Shown here: piece after piece, positions 18,146 to 45,336 of the stretch
How positions within the stretch are numbered: position 1 is the stretch's first letter
How the letters are laid out: each line of letters starts with the position of its first letter
DNA from: Herbaspirillum seropedicae
Lineage (GTDB): Bacteria; Pseudomonadota; Gammaproteobacteria; Burkholderiales; Burkholderiaceae_D
Assembly: GCF_001040945.1 (NCBI RefSeq)
Contig: NZ_CP011930.1
Location: forward strand, 2,271,704-2,335,703
Length of the DNA stretch: 64,000 nucleotides
Direction: 5' to 3'
Program-made: the position numbers and the translations under genes
Notes under the pieces: generated by a model
Seen by the model: only the letters and a program-made list of their open reading frames with translations
Told to the model about the DNA's origin: nothing
Database searches by the model: none

Positions 18146-20263
18146 ATGGCAACCAAACTCAATACCATGAAAATCCCGGCCTGGGTGCCGGTCAAGAACG
18201 CCAGGGCCATGGCGGCCCCCATCCTCATCGTCATGATGCTGGCGATGATGGTGCTGCCGCTGCCAGCCTTCATGCTGGACTTGCTGTTCAGCTTCAACAT
18301 CTCGCTGTCGGTGATCGTGCTGATGACGGCGCTCTATACCGTCAAGCCGCTGGACTTCATCGCCTTCCCGGCGGTGCTGCTGGTCTCGACCATGTTGCGC
18401 CTGTCGCTCAACGTGGCCTCCACCCGTGTCGTGCTGACCGAAGGCCATACCGGCCCGGACGCCGCCGGCAAGGTGATCGAGGCCTTCGGTCACTTCCTCA
18501 TTGGCGGCAACTACACGGTTGGTATCGTGGTGTTCGTGATCCTGACCATCATCAACTTCATGGTCGTGACCAAGGGTGCTGGCCGTATCGCCGAAGTGGG
18601 CGCGCGCTTCACCCTGGACGCCATGCCCGGCAAGCAGATGGCCATCGACGCCGACCTCAACGCCGGCTTGATCGGTGAGCCCGAAGCCCGCGCCCGCCGC
18701 AAGGAAGTGGCGCAGGAATCCGAGTTCTACGGCGCCATGGACGGTGCCTCCAAGTATGTGCGCGGCGACGCCGTGGCCGGCATCATCGTCACCGTCGTCA
18801 ACATCGTCGGCGGCCTGGTGGTGGGCATGGTGCAGCACGATCTGGCCTTCGACGCCGCCCTGAAGAACTACACCTTGCTGGCCATCGGTGACGGCCTGGT
18901 GGCGCAGATTCCCTCGCTGATCATTTCCACCGCCGCCGGTGTGGTGGTCTCGCGTGTGGCCAACGACCAGGACGTGGGCGGCCAGCTGATCAATCAGCTC
19001 TTCGCCAAGCCGGAAGTGCTCTACATTACCGCTGTCATCATCGGCGGCATGGGCCTGATCCCTGGCATGCCGCACATTGCCTTCATCCTGCTGGCCGCCG
19101 CCATGGGCGGTGGCGCCTACGCCATCAGCAAGCGCGTCGAAAAGGCCAAGACCGAGGCCGCTGCCAGCCAGGCGCAGGCCGCCGCGGGCGGTGGCGCGGC
19201 CGCGGCGCCGCAGGAAAGCGAAGAGGCCACCTGGAACGACGTCATGCCGGTCGATACCCTCGGCCTGGAAGTGGGTTATCGTCTCATCCCGCTGGTGGAC
19301 AAGGGGCAGGGCGGCGAGTTGCTCAAGCGCATCAAGGGCATCCGCAAGAAATTCGCCCAGGAAGTGGGCTTCCTCTCGCCGCCCATCCATATCCGCGACA
19401 ATCTGGAATTGAAACCCTCGGCCTATCGCATTACTCTGAAGGGAGTGGAAGTCGGCAACGGCGAGGCCCATGCTGGTCAGTACCTGGCCATCAATCCCGG
19501 CATGGTGACCGGTCCCTTGCCGGGCATGATGACCACCGACCCGGCCTTCGGGCTGCCGGCGGTATGGATCGACAATGGTCTGCGCGAGCAAGCCTCTACC
19601 ATGGGCTATACCGTGGTCGATGCCGGCACCGTGGTGGCCACGCACCTGAACCACCTGATCACCACCCATGCAGCAGAGCTGCTGGGACGCCAGGAGGTGC
19701 AGAGCCTGCTGGACCACCTGGCCAAGGATGCGCCCAAGCTGGTCGAGGACCTGGTGCCCAAGATGCTGCCGCTGGGCAGCCTGCAGAAGGTGTTGCAGAA
19801 CCTGCTCATCGAAGGCGTGCATATCCGCGATATGCGCACCATCATCGAGACCCTGGCCGAGCACGCTGCGCGCATCCAGGATCCGACCGACCTTACCGCG
19901 ATCGTGCGTATCGCGCTGGGCCGGGCGATCGTGCAGCAGATGTTCCCGGGCGAAAGCGAGTTGCCGGTCATGGCGCTCGATTCCAAGCTGGAGCGCCTGC
20001 TCATGCAAGCCCTGCAGGCCAGCGGCGAGTCCGGCGGCATCGAGCCGGGCCTGGCCGATTCGCTGGTGCAGCATACCGAGATCGCGGCGCAGCGCCAGGA
20101 ACAGATGGGGTATTCGCCGGTGCTGTTGGTGGGCGCGCCCTTGCGTACGCTGCTGGCGCGCTTCTTGCGCCGGGCCATGCCACAGTTGCGCGTGCTGTCG
20201 CACGCTGAAGTACCCGAGTCGAAAACGATTAAAGTTACCAGCCTAGTTGGAGGGCAAGCATGA
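18146..20263 (+). CDS. flhA: Flagellar export gate protein FlhA
   Basis: The largest export-gate protein, 705 residues. The N-terminal half has about eight membrane segments and the conserved RLSLNVASTRVVL region linked to the proton path. The C-terminal half is a cytoplasmic domain that docks chaperone-substrate pairs. It starts two bases after the flhB stop and overlaps flhF by ATGA, so the three are tightly coupled. Confidence 0.97.
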   Translation: MATKLNTMKIPAWVPVKNARAMAAPILIVMMLAMMVLPLPAFMLDLLFSFNISLSVIVLMTALYTVKPLDFIAFPAVLLVSTMLRLSLNVASTRVVLTEGHTGPDAAGKVIEAFGHFLIGGNYTVGIVVFVILTIINFMVVTKGAGRIAEVGARFTLDAMPGKQMAIDADLNAGLIGEPEARARRKEVAQESEFYGAMDGASKYVRGDAVAGIIVTVVNIVGGLVVGMVQHDLAFDAALKNYTLLAIGDGLVAQIPSLIISTAAGVVVSRVANDQDVGGQLINQLFAKPEVLYITAVIIGGMGLIPGMPHIAFILLAAAMGGGAYAISKRVEKAKTEAAASQAQAAAGGGAAAAPQESEEATWNDVMPVDTLGLEVGYRLIPLVDKGQGGELLKRIKGIRKKFAQEVGFLSPPIHIRDNLELKPSAYRITLKGVEVGNGEAHAGQYLAINPGMVTGPLPGMMTTDPAFGLPAVWIDNGLREQASTMGYTVVDAGTVVATHLNHLITTHAAELLGRQEVQSLLDHLAKDAPKLVEDLVPKMLPLGSLQKVLQNLLIEGVHIRDMRTIIETLAEHAARIQDPTDLTAIVRIALGRAIVQQMFPGESELPVMALDSKLERLLMQALQASGESGGIEPGLADSLVQHTEIAAQRQEQMGYSPVLLVGAPLRTLLARFLRRAMPQLRVLSHAEVPESKTIKVTSLVGGQA

Positions 20264-21744
20264 ACGTCAAGAAATTTATCGCCAATTCTTCTCGCGAGGC
20301 CTGGCGCCAGGTCCGCGAGGCGCTTGGGCCGGATGCCGTCATTCTCTCCAACCGCAATATTCCTGACGGGGTGGAAATCCTGGCCATGGCCAATGAGGAC
20401 ATGACCACCCTGGTCGCGCCCACCGGTGCGCGCGACCCGTCCGGTCGTCCGCAGGCGGCCTCGCTGCAGCAGCAGTCGGGCTTGCCGCCGGCACAGCAGC
20501 CGCGCCGTCCGGCCTTGTTGTCGTCGCCGCCGGCGCAAGCCCGCCCGGCGCGGGAAGGCGCTCCCTTGCTGGACCAGCCGGGCAGCGAACGCAGCCAGGC
20601 ACGCGCCGAGGCCGCCCCGGCAGCCGATGCCCGCGTCTGGCGCAGCCGCACCCGTGATAGCGGCAACGCTCAGCGTCGCGCCGCCGCACCAGCAGGCGCC
20701 CCGCAGGGGCAAGAACAGGAGCAGGACCGTCCGCGTTCGGCCCTGCCTGAATTCGATGGCAAGGACTATGACGAGATCCTCTCCGAGGTCATGAGCGAGA
20801 TCCGTTCCATGCGCGGCGTGCTGGAAACCCAGCTGGCCGAGATATCCTGGGGTGGCACGCAAAAGCGTGAGCCGCTCAAGGGCATCGTCCTGAAGGAAAT
20901 GCTGGCAGCCGGTTTCTCGGCAAGCCTGTCGCGTCTGATCACGGAAAACCTGCCGGCCAATTCCAAGTCCCAGGACATCATGTTCTGGGTCAAGTCGGTC
21001 CTGGCGCGCAACCTCAACACCCTGGCCAACGAAAACGAATTGCTGGAGAACGGCGGCGTCTTCGCCATGGTCGGCCCCACCGGTGTAGGCAAGACCACCA
21101 CCACCGCCAAGCTGGCAGCGCGCTGCGTGATGCGCCACGGCTCCGGCAAGCTGGCCCTGATCACCACCGACGGCTACCGTATCGGCGGCTACGAACAGCT
21201 GCGCATCTACGGCAAGATCCTGGGCGTGATGGTGCACTCGGTCAAGGATGAGACCGACCTGCGCATTGCGCTGGAAGAACTCAAGGGCAAGCACACCGTA
21301 TTGATCGACACCGCTGGCGTGGGCCAGCGCGACCAGATGGTGGCCGAGCAGGACGCCATGCTCACTGGCGCCGGCGTGGACATCAAGCGCCTGCTGTGCC
21401 TGAACGCCACCGCCACCGGCGGCACCTTGAACGAAGTGGTGCACGCCTATTCCAGCTCGGGCCTGGCTGGCTGCATCATCACCAAGCTCGACGAAGCTGC
21501 CACCATCGGCAATGTGCTGGACGTGGTGATCCGTCACAAGCTCAACCTGCACTATGTGGCCAACGGCCAGCGCGTGCCTGAAGACCTGCATGTGGCCAAC
21601 AAGCTCTACCTGGCCGACCGCGCCTTCAAGCAAAAGCGCGAGACCGCGCCCTTCGAATTCCAGGAGGGTGAGTTACCCGGCGTGATCGGTCCCACCGCCA
21701 TGTCGATGAATGACAAAGGTCTGCGCGAGGTGAGCTTTGGCTAG
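20260..21744 (+). CDS. flhF: Flagellar SRP-type GTPase FlhF
   Basis: A GTPase of the signal-recognition-particle family that sets the position and number of flagella, mainly in polar flagellates. It is 494 residues: an N-terminal region, a long Pro/Arg/Gln-rich low-complexity B domain (about 65-165), and the NG domain with P-loop GPTGVGKTTTTAKLA (about 271-285), DTAGVGQRD and TKLDEA. Overlaps flhA (ATGA) and flhG. Its presence suggests polar or spatially controlled flagella. Confidence 0.95.
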   Translation: MNVKKFIANSSREAWRQVREALGPDAVILSNRNIPDGVEILAMANEDMTTLVAPTGARDPSGRPQAASLQQQSGLPPAQQPRRPALLSSPPAQARPAREGAPLLDQPGSERSQARAEAAPAADARVWRSRTRDSGNAQRRAAAPAGAPQGQEQEQDRPRSALPEFDGKDYDEILSEVMSEIRSMRGVLETQLAEISWGGTQKREPLKGIVLKEMLAAGFSASLSRLITENLPANSKSQDIMFWVKSVLARNLNTLANENELLENGGVFAMVGPTGVGKTTTTAKLAARCVMRHGSGKLALITTDGYRIGGYEQLRIYGKILGVMVHSVKDETDLRIALEELKGKHTVLIDTAGVGQRDQMVAEQDAMLTGAGVDIKRLLCLNATATGGTLNEVVHAYSSSGLAGCIITKLDEAATIGNVLDVVIRHKLNLHYVANGQRVPEDLHVANKLYLADRAFKQKRETAPFEFQEGELPGVIGPTAMSMNDKGLREVSFG

Positions 21745-22579
21745 TTACGATGGCGACCAGGCCGCTGGACTGCGCCGGATGCTGGAGCGTCCGGTCCCCA
21801 GGCTGTTTACCTTCTTTTCCGTGCTAGCGGAAGAAGACAAGAGCGCCATGCTCATCAATCTGGCGGCTTCGCTGGCGCAGGCCAAGCACAGCGTGCTGGT
21901 CATCGATGGCGACGTGGCCACCACCGGGCTGCTTACCCGCATCGGCCTGCGCCATGACGTGGCCACGCTGCAGGAGGTGGCGCGCATGGAGCGCGCACCA
22001 CGCGAAGCGACCCGCATGTTGCCGGAAGGTTTTTCGATGGCGCGCATTGCGCGACGCAGCGTGCCCTCTGCCAGTGACCCGCAGGCCGGCCAACTGGCGG
22101 AGATCTTCGATAGCCTCATCGAGCAGGCCGAGATCACCCTGGTCAATGGCGTGCTGTCGGCGGACCAGTCGCTGCCGGTGCCGACCATGGAGATGGGAGA
22201 GATCGTGATCCAGGTCTCGACCACGGCGTCCTCGATCAAGGCTGCCTATGTGCTGCTCAAGAGCCTGAGCGACCGCATCGGTCGTCGCCCGTTCAGCCTC
22301 ATCGTCAATGATGCGACCGAAGCCGAGGCGCGCACCGTCTACGCCAACATGGCGCAGGCGGCCAGCCGCTACCTGGCGGCGCAGCTCAATTACCTGGGCG
22401 CCATCCCGGCCGACGACCATATCCGTCGCGCCACCGGGCAGGGGCGTGCGGTGATGGATGTGTTTCCGTTCGCGACGGCGGCGCTGGCTTTCCAGCGCCT
22501 GTCCAAGAAATTCACCGCGGCCGAATCGGCGCGCAGCACTTACGGGATGGCGACCGACGGTGCGAGTCTGGGAGTGTGA
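21737..22579 (+). CDS. flhG: FlhG-like (FleN/YlxH) protein with degenerate ATPase site
   Basis: FlhG is a MinD-type ATPase that limits flagellar number and activates FlhF. This 280-residue copy keeps the FlhF-activating motif DQAxxLR at residues 7-13 (DQAAGLR) and the fold signature VLVIDGD at 53-59, but the deviant Walker A expected at about 28-38 (GKGGVGKT) is replaced by VLAEEDKSAM, with no conserved glycines or lysine pair. It probably does not bind ATP normally. The start is an unusual TTG (21737), supported by the ribosome site GAGGTGA and by the DQA motif directly downstream. It overlaps flhF. Confidence 0.85.
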   Translation: MASYDGDQAAGLRRMLERPVPRLFTFFSVLAEEDKSAMLINLAASLAQAKHSVLVIDGDVATTGLLTRIGLRHDVATLQEVARMERAPREATRMLPEGFSMARIARRSVPSASDPQAGQLAEIFDSLIEQAEITLVNGVLSADQSLPVPTMEMGEIVIQVSTTASSIKAAYVLLKSLSDRIGRRPFSLIVNDATEAEARTVYANMAQAASRYLAAQLNYLGAIPADDHIRRATGQGRAVMDVFPFATAALAFQRLSKKFTAAESARSTYGMATDGASLGV

Positions 22580-22584
22580 CGTGC

Positions 22585-23319
22585 ATGTATAACGTCAAGG
22601 GAAAAAAAGGCAAGAACGATTTGCTGGAGCAGCATGCGCCGCTGGTGAAGAAGCTGGCGCATCAGCTCAAGGCAAAGTTGCCTCCCAGCGTGGAGGTGGA
22701 CGACCTCATCCAGGCCGGCATGATGGGCCTGCTCGACGCCGTCAACCGCTACGAGGAAACCCATGGCGCGCAGTTCGAGACCTATGCCGTGCAACGTATC
22801 CGCGGCGCCATGCTCGATGAGCTGCGCAGCAGCGACTGGCTGCCGCGCAGCATCCGCCAGAACGCCCGCAAGGTCGAAGAAGCCATGCAGACGCTGCTGC
22901 AGCAACTGGGCCGGCAGCCGAAGGAAGCCGAACTGGCGCAGCACATGCAGATCAGCCTGGAGGACTACCAGTCCCTGCTGAGTGAGTGTGGCGGCCATCA
23001 GTTGATCTACTACGAAGATTTCCATGACGACGATGGCGGCCACGAGCACTTCCTGGACCGTCACCAGACCTCGGACTCCGACGATCCTCTACAGAACCTG
23101 ATCAATGGCGGCTTCCGCGAAGCAGTGGTGGATTCGATCAAGGCGCTGCCCGAGCGCGAGCAGATCCTGATGGCGCTGTATTACGAGCAGGAGATGAATC
23201 TCAAGGAAATCGGCGCCGTCATGGGCGTGTCCGAGTCGCGCGTCTGCCAGCTGCACAGCCAGGCCATTTCGCGCATGCGCTCCTATCTGCGCGAGCATTC
23301 CTGGAGCGGCGTGGCCTGA
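22585..23319 (+). CDS. fliA: RNA polymerase sigma28 factor FliA
   Basis: Directs RNA polymerase to late flagellar promoters. It has 244 residues with regions 2 (PPSVEVDDLIQAGMMGLLDA), 3 and 4 (EQEMNLKEIGAVMGVSESRV, the -35 helix-turn-helix). ATG 22585 has GGAG ten bases before; the GTG at 22576 is too close to that site. Its inhibitor FlgM is encoded convergently 0.6 kb away. Sites matching its consensus precede flgM, flgK and fliC. Confidence 0.96.
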   Translation: MYNVKGKKGKNDLLEQHAPLVKKLAHQLKAKLPPSVEVDDLIQAGMMGLLDAVNRYEETHGAQFETYAVQRIRGAMLDELRSSDWLPRSIRQNARKVEEAMQTLLQQLGRQPKEAELAQHMQISLEDYQSLLSECGGHQLIYYEDFHDDDGGHEHFLDRHQTSDSDDPLQNLINGGFREAVVDSIKALPEREQILMALYYEQEMNLKEIGAVMGVSESRVCQLHSQAISRMRSYLREHSWSGVA

Positions 23320-44331: not shown

Positions 44332-45336
44332 CTAATCTCCTTGAAAGCTTTCCGGTGTTTCTTGATGGGTGATGGACAGCAGTTTTTCAACGCGCAAGGC
44401 GTATTGGCCATTGGATTGGCCATAGCTGCATTCCATCACCGGCACGCCGTCAACCTGTGCCTCGACGGTCGTATTGGTCTGCAGCGGAATGACGTCGCCC
44501 ACCTGCATGTGCAGCAGGTCGGTGAAGTTGACCCGGGCGGTGCCGAAATTGACGATCAGTTCGACCTCGGCGGTCTGGATCTGCTGCTTCATCAGGCGGA
44601 TCCAGCGCTTGTCGACTTCCAGCGCCTCACCCTGCATGCTGCTGGTGAGGCGGTCACGCACCGGCTCGATCATCGAGTAGGGCGTGCAGATATGGATTTC
44701 GCCCGACACCGGCCCCAGCTCGACGGTGAAGGTGGTCGAGACCACCACTTCGTTGGGCGTGGCGATGTTGGCGAACTGGGTATTCATTTCCGAGCGGATG
44801 AATTCGAATTCGATCGGATAGATCGGTTCCCACGACTTGGCGTAGGTTTCGAAGGTGATCTCCAGCACGCGCATGATGATGCGCTGCTCGGTGGGCGTGA
44901 ATTCGCGGCCTTCGATGCGGGTGTGGAAGCGGCCATCGCCGCCGAACATGTTGTCCACCAGCATGAAGACGAACTGTGGGTCGAACACCACCAGCCCGAT
45001 ACCGCGGAAGGGCTTGATGTGGACCAGGTTCAGGTTGGTGGGCACCACCAGGTTGCGGATGAACTCGCTGTACTTGGACACCTTCACCGGCCCGACCGAG
45101 ATCTCGGCGGTACGGTGGATGAAGTTGAACAAGCCGATGCGGAACAGGCGTGCAAAGCGCTCGTTGATGATTTCGAGCGTGGGCATGCGCCCGCGCACGA
45201 TGCGTTCCTGCGTAGCCAGGTTGTAGGTACGTACCGTACCAGGAGCTTCTTCGACGACTTTTTCTTCGTCTTCATCTCCCGTCACGCCCTTCAAAAGGGC
45301 ATCGACTTCTTCCTGTGATAGAAAATGCTCGGCCAT
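44332..45336 (-). CDS. fliM: Flagellar motor switch protein FliM
   Basis: A C-ring protein with the N-terminal CheY-P binding peptide (LSQEEVDALLKGV at residues 6-18), a middle CheC-like domain with GGDGRFHTRIEGREFTPTEQ, and a C-terminal SpoA domain. Its 334 residues are typical. Confidence 0.97.
   Translation of the reverse strand: MAEHFLSQEEVDALLKGVTGDEDEEKVVEEAPGTVRTYNLATQERIVRGRMPTLEIINERFARLFRIGLFNFIHRTAEISVGPVKVSKYSEFIRNLVVPTNLNLVHIKPFRGIGLVVFDPQFVFMLVDNMFGGDGRFHTRIEGREFTPTEQRIIMRVLEITFETYAKSWEPIYPIEFEFIRSEMNTQFANIATPNEVVVSTTFTVELGPVSGEIHICTPYSMIEPVRDRLTSSMQGEALEVDKRWIRLMKQQIQTAEVELIVNFGTARVNFTDLLHMQVGDVIPLQTNTTVEAQVDGVPVMECSYGQSNGQYALRVEKLLSITHQETPESFQGD

Follow-up and report, generated by a model that had tools for sequence, protein, structure and literature searches.

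The flagellar locus around flhG

In the 64,000-nucleotide stretch of the Herbaspirillum seropedicae genome analysed here (the window), flhG was found directly downstream of flhF, as in other members of the FlhG/FleN/YlxH group, within a Herbaspirillum-like flagellar cluster. A CheY-like receiver, cheZ, flhB and flhA are placed upstream of flhF and flhG, and flgN, flgM and flgA lie on the opposite strand downstream of fliA. The genes discussed below are:

20260..21744, + strand: flhF, the partner GTPase, P-loop intact GPTGVGKTTTTAKLA
21737..22579, + strand: flhG, ORF of 280 aa with a TTG start, putative pseudo-ATPase form
22576..23319, + strand: fliA (sigma-28), downstream neighbour of flhG, with sigma-70 regions 2, 3 and 4
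44332..45336, - strand: fliM, C-ring protein and candidate FlhG partner, beginning with MAEHFLSQEEVDALL (Pfam FliM, 1.3e-68)

The TTG start of flhG and its overlap with flhF, both pointed out earlier from the sequence alone, were found as described, the overlap being 8 bases long and the TAG stop of flhF lying at 21742-21744. The genome consists of one 5.51-Mb contig, in which FlhG gave a single strong match (7e-174), the next one reaching only 0.005. With Pfam, CbiA was the only family above its cut-off for this protein (28.8 vs 25.4 bits), and with NCBIfam no family passed the cut-off. The nearest solved protein by sequence is FleN (6e-19), the named close homologues among the matches listed are from Herbaspirillum, and the predicted model has a MinD-like fold. 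Judged by its sequence, the product of 21737-22579 is an FlhG by descent and not an FlhG ATPase.

Loss of the canonical P-loop in the window protein and in the sampled order

The sequence-only reading held that DQAAGLR is preserved at residues 7-13, that VLVIDGD is present and that the P-loop is lost, and all three statements agree with what we found. The features involved are:

21755..21775, + strand: DQAAGLR, residues 7-13, motif of the FlhF GTPase-activating helix (sequence)
21824..21844, + strand: LAEEDKS, residues 30-36, standing where other FlhG have the deviant Walker A, KGGVGKT (alignment, model, homologue count)
21905..21913, + strand: DGD, residues 57-59, aligned with a DxD that sequences from outside the order have without exception (alignment)
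22145..22147, + strand: N137, replacing the Walker B Asp (alignment)
22526..22576, + strand: C-terminal tail, residues 264-280, at the site of the membrane-targeting helix of other FlhG, pLDDT <50 (motif, model)

In the alignment K35 and S36 occupy the K-T positions of the P-loop, while neither the signature Lys nor any of the three Gly is left; the deviant Walker A with signature Lys that marks MinD/ParA ATPases is thus absent. A Walker A shifted elsewhere in the protein was considered and rejected, since a pattern scan found no [AG]xxxxGK[ST] anywhere in the flhG ORF, its four matches in the window belonging to other ORFs. In the predicted model, helix 32-48 begins inside the former P-loop site. 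The second Asp of DGD is present in the window protein (it is Cys in 20 of the 31 family sequences aligned), and at the Walker B position, D in 59/59 sequences from outside the order, the same 31 divide into 22 with D and 9 with N. Because, among the best 120 of 211 homologues, none carries KGGxGK[ST], all 120 have D or E at residue 34, in place of a P-loop glycine, and K follows at residue 35 in 115, the loss is, by this sequence comparison, due neither to chance nor to a sequencing error.

In order to place this loss, FlhF was sought in 120 genomes of the order (Burkholderiales) and in 140 genomes of the class, the stretch downstream was fetched and FlhG was aligned. Outside the order, where FlhF was matched at E <= 1e-20 in 72 genomes and the loci of 60 of them were fetched, the full KGGxGK[ST] is found in 59/59 alignable sequences of the same class and DQAxxLR in 36/59. 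The 59 do not include locus L176 (genome G305), whose reading frame breaks and which has KGGVGKS in another frame, pointing to either an assembly frameshift or a broken gene. Inside the order, own family excluded, KGGxGK[ST] is found in 0/73 sequences, 17 of which retain ..GK[ST] without the full signature, and DQAxxLR in 73/73, a figure that is partly due to selection as these sequences were retained only on a [DE]QAxxL match. They come from 77 fetched loci; FlhF reached E <= 1e-50 in 79 genomes, of which G222 and G233 are not included, the FlhF of G233 lying at contig ends. Four of the 77 were left out: L089 and L110 (G240 and G235), in which flhF is present and no recognisable FlhG was found in the downstream stretch fetched; L108, which has DQAAGLR but a profile E of 0.002; and L099 (G211). 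The FlhG-like protein of this last locus reads HQASGLQ for DQAxxLR and has no GK[ST] at the P-loop, both motifs thus being lost. When the dropped loci are counted in, DQAxxLR is present in 74/77 loci of the order vs 36/59 outside it (Fisher p 2e-7, kinship ignored).

In its own family, where 125 of 145 genomes had any match, the window together with the 30 loci scoring best gave KGGxGK[ST] in 0/31 and DQAxxLR in 31/31, and nine FlhG unlike these (eight low-scoring matches plus that of G025) gave 0/9 and 9/9. These counts lend support to the earlier proposal that two activities are split here, at least in the sense that their motifs appear separable. Four family loci (L064, L113, L114, L115) carry a second, unlike type of FlhG, also without P-loop, which groups with a Caballeronia-like one (L065) on a quick tree and may have been transferred or belong to a second flagellar system. 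With one Caballeronia-type query, no GK[ST] was seen at the site in 20/20 loci read from Caballeronia, Paraburkholderia, Burkholderia sp., Variovorax and a Gallionellaceae bin. A GVGKT-type query gave KGGxGK[ST] in 1 and GxGK[ST] in 93 of the 120 matches listed, which are ranked by likeness to the query; the only one with the full motif, P0215, is not placed in a lineage. Since two Paenibacillus FlhG carry DQAEGLR together with KGGVGKS, the presence of both motifs may be suggested as the ancestral state. On this sequence evidence the loss of the P-loop is not private to the window gene, and is partial or whole in the sampled relatives of the order.

The P-loops of MinD and FlhF are retained in relatives. 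MinD keeps KGGxGK[TS] in 13/13 genomes of the order with a MinD above the family cut-off (25 searched), the own genome encodes a MinD with KGGVGKT (L187), and the P-loop of FlhF is intact in 8/8 loci read, window included. In addition, flhG is under purifying selection, dN/dS being 0.07-0.11 against seven of eight congeners and 0.20 against the eighth, the most distant. No internal stop was found in the window gene nor in 29 other fetched family loci. Elsewhere in the family (G053, G121, G004) there are FlhG-like matches with one in-frame stop, possibly decaying genes or sequence errors.

A single loss event is not supported: the quick FlhG tree, built with the P-loop columns omitted, needs at least five changes between kept and lost, and at least three are forced by the starred branches for the lost state, a rough count given that the model was a simpler one and that long branches meet. 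This tree has 92 rows, namely 6 of the 59 from outside, 9 of the 31 of the family, and the remaining rows of the order and the family minus L079, L090, L111, L112 and L117.

The C-terminal membrane-targeting amphipathic helix is, by motif and predicted model only, also absent from the window FlhG. The tail FFx[ED][RQK][LIM] was found in 60/60 sequences from outside the order, 0/73 in the order and 0/31 in the family; a looser F-x-x-R-L tail, membrane-helix-like, is present in 25/73 from the rest of the order and in 0/31 of the family. Moreover, a FleQ receiver-like domain (E <= 1e-7) was detected in 30/40 genomes outside the order and 0/40 within it. The best PF06490 match in the own genome has an E of 1.3e-4, in a 273-aa frame, and a divergent FleQ could escape such detection. 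All of the ten outside genomes without a FleQ match at this threshold keep KGGxGK[ST]. The lack of FleQ matches fits the loss of the P-loop at the level of the order, in what is nearly a one-clade comparison that does not show cause. The master regulator FlhDC was rejected as a correlate of the loss within the order, GK[ST] being kept in 6/27 loci with FlhC and 11/46 without (Fisher p = 1.0).

Retained segments and the mini-FlhG of Rhodocyclaceae

Apart from DQAxxLR, all groups have preserved Y171 and K175 and, with less strictness, a G-x-[IV]-P-x-D segment; DQA-GLRR, Y171 and K175 are invariant over 92 aligned sequences. Two stretches of the C-terminal half are of interest:

22247..22261, + strand: Y171-K175, K175 aligning with K177 of Geobacillus FlhG (alignment)
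22346..22375, + strand: N204-L213 (NMAQAASRYL), Y212 aligning with Geobacillus F215 and N204 with R207 (alignment)

The N-terminal DQAxxLR helix is present in the window protein, the predicted model placing a helix at residues 8-16 with lower confidence (block means 57 and 67). According to PMC12826062 this EH helix stimulates FlhF through its Gln. Among the best 120 of 211 homologues the motif was read in 108, the other 12 starting at an internal Met just after it. In these (P0006, P0007, P0010, P0011, P0021, P0026, P0027, P0029, P0045, P0064, P0091 and P0114) the start, MLERP or similar, follows DQAxGLRR. The gene callers have probably cut the FlhF-activating helix off these 12 database proteins, the start of the window gene being TTG.

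In Geobacillus, FlhG is reported to need K177, an Arg (given as 277 in two places of the paper and as R207 in another) and F215 for binding FliY, and to bind the FliY N-terminus independently of nucleotides and lipids only as a homodimer (PMC12327844). The window protein keeps the K177 and F215 types (K175 and Y212, matched by counting along the PDB chain with an 8-residue offset) and has N204 for R207. The K177 position is K in 59/59 sequences outside the order, 70/73 within it (R in three) and 31/31 of the family, and the F215 position is F or Y in 59/59, 58/73 and 31/31, respectively. The FliM encoded in the window retains EVDALL near its start.

In some Rhodocyclaceae, FlhG appears from its sequence to be reduced to 87-136 residues, the FlhF-activating helix being joined to the C-ring-binding segment. 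We found 51 such mini-FlhG, with DQAxxLR in 51/51, YxxIK in 51/51, YLG in 50/51 and GxGK[ST] in 0/51; the length window of this search excludes full-length FlhG, and some of the 51 may be contig-end fragments. Several are named Rhodocyclaceae or Sulfuritalea. The one of Sulfuricystis multivorans (G163; P0241, named 'hypothetical protein') has 117 aa, is placed between flhF and fliA, and consists of a DQAEGLRRLL helix and a segment corresponding in the alignment to residues 162-220 of a full-length relative. Mini-FlhG are flanked by flhF and fliA in four loci; the widest aligned segment among these four genomes is 155-239 of the full-length relative, and no further FlhG match was found in them; one of the four genomes, G480, is incomplete and has stops in the matched stretch. 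Two mini-FlhG searched against Pfam gave no match. Since other species of the same family have GMGKT or GVGKT, ACGRT (Arg for Lys) or unrelated letters at the site, a graded series of P-loop states exists there at the sequence level.

A proposed FlhG without an ATP cycle and its comparison with known systems

FlhG helps bacteria to control the number and the placement of their flagella. A MinD-like ATPase alternating between a monomer and an ATP-bound dimer is how it is described (PMC12826062). Losing the ability to bind ATP does harm in at least one species, because the Walker A mutants of Vibrio alginolyticus FlhG lose function, an ATP-binding, non-hydrolysing mutant being only slightly affected (PMC7226244).

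As read from alignment and model, the window protein has lost the P-loop, the Walker B Asp and the C-terminal membrane helix and has kept the DQAxxLR helix and two of the three known C-ring-binding residues. It is probably a pseudo-ATPase FlhG that keeps the activation of FlhF and the capture of C-ring subunits without an ATP-driven dimer/membrane cycle. Such an FlhG would not bind ATP in the manner of MinD and would stay a soluble monomer; its N-terminal helix would stimulate GTP hydrolysis by FlhF, and its C-terminal half would capture FliM/FliN subunits. No ATP-driven cycle between dimer and membrane would take place, and flagellar number, if timed at all, would be timed by the GTP cycle of FlhF, by the assembly of the C-ring and by protein levels. 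The FleN dimer switches off the ATPase of FleQ/FlrA, and that this partner is undetected in the sampled order would be a likely reason why the ATP-dependent functions could go. The retained residues map to functions reported to be nucleotide-free, namely FlhF activation by the helix and C-ring capture, and the missing motifs and partner map to the ATP dimer, lipid binding and FleQ. This split is not clean, however, because binding to FleQ is reported for FleN even as a monomer free of nucleotide (PMC10723142), and the lipids and ATP were present when FlhG was seen to promote the assembly of FliM/FliY on FliG in vitro (PMC12327844). A pseudo-ATPase adaptor is nevertheless the simplest account. 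Also counting against this account are the 17/73 FlhG of the order with ..GK[ST], which may bind ATP, and the 25/73 with a membrane-helix-like tail.

The sequence-only reading proposed that the protein may be an FlhF activator without an ATP switch. The lost P-loop and the intact motif agree with this; the C-ring-binding residues are largely kept, so that the protein is probably more than an FlhF activator. That it is one and nothing else, the conserved C-terminal residues supporting the fold and no longer binding the C-ring, seems to us unlikely. The N-terminal region is indeed the one reported to stimulate FlhF (PMC12826062, PMC7226244), the R207 position is N in 31/31 family sequences, 11/73 sequences of the order have H or N at the F215 position, and Y171 and K175 could be kept for folding alone; yet mini-FlhG sheds most of the fold and preserves YxxIK and, with one exception, YLG, and the FliM of the window still has its EVDALL. 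Still more doubtful is a remodelled site that binds ATP differently, or a ligand other than ATP, so that a switch persists. The nearly fixed acidic-Lys pair at residues 34-35, the first Asp of DGD (D57), kept in 31/31 family sequences, and the conserved predicted fold would speak for it. Against it, acidic side chains replace Gly beside the P-loop Lys, the model helix starts there, the Walker B Asp is N in the window protein, and mini-FlhG has no such site at all.

The presence of an intact MinD in the own genome raises the idea of a heterodimer in which an ATPase of this kind supplies the ATP site. The signature Lys acts in trans in MinD-type dimers, and because of this its loss in 31/31 family sequences counts against such a partnership, which we regard as very improbable. 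Least credible of all is a decaying gene without remaining function. The divergence from FleN, the weak profile scores and the three family matches with an in-frame stop might invite this idea, but the open frames of the window gene and the 29 other loci, a dN/dS well below 1 against all eight congeners, a result that refutes decay, and the invariant DQA-GLRR, Y171 and K175 all oppose it.

The earlier reading had overlooked that, on the sequence evidence, the loss is order-wide, the membrane-targeting helix is lost, the C-ring residues are largely kept and the ATPase core is deleted in other relatives. With chances only just better than even, we are inclined to extend the pseudo-ATPase reading to the whole of the Burkholderiales: their FlhF/FlhG switch would run without a MinD-type ATP cycle, FlhG serving as a nucleotide-free FlhF activator and C-ring adaptor, reduced in some Rhodocyclaceae to both modules. 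If this is true, the mini-FlhG of some Rhodocyclaceae reveal the minimal FlhG. Being small, mini-FlhG would be convenient for solving structures together with FlhF and FliM. Across the sampled part of an entire order, the wild-type FlhG is without the canonical motif and has an FlhF-activating motif more conserved than in other orders. Ranging from GVGKT to complete deletion, these forms make up a natural separation-of-function series, which bears on where the control of flagellar number depends on ATP. The FlhF/FlhG switch is said to be far less understood outside monotrichous species in a review (PMC12826062), the parts covered of which make no mention of P-loop-less or mini FlhG. Among the matches listed from the open-licence literature, no title or abstract opening refers to FlhG without Walker A, to Rhodocyclaceae FlhG or to mini-FlhG.

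The window protein shares with FlhG/YlxH of Geobacillus and Bacillus (4RZ2, 4RZ3) the MinD-like fold, the DQAxxLR N-terminal helix, the K177- and F215-type residues and the position after flhF, but it is without their deviant Walker A, Walker B Asp and C-terminal membrane helix. Its closest solved relative by sequence and fold is FleN of Pseudomonas (5J1J, 7EJW, 8P53), and the gene order flhA-flhF-fleN-fliA reported for P. putida (PMC6424431) is that of the window. Pseudomonas FleN binds ATP, dimerises and inhibits FleQ, whereas in the window FlhG the ATP site is lost and the best FleQ-domain match of its genome is weak. With the MinD/ParA ATPases it has in common the predicted fold; the nucleotide motif that defines them is absent, and an N-terminal DQAxxLR helix is added. 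The mini-FlhG (P0241) has, like the window protein, the DQAxGLRRL helix, YxxIK and the F..L..V...YLG segment, and lies between flhF and fliA, whereas in mini-FlhG of 87-136 aa the P-loop, the Walker B and the membrane helix have been deleted altogether.
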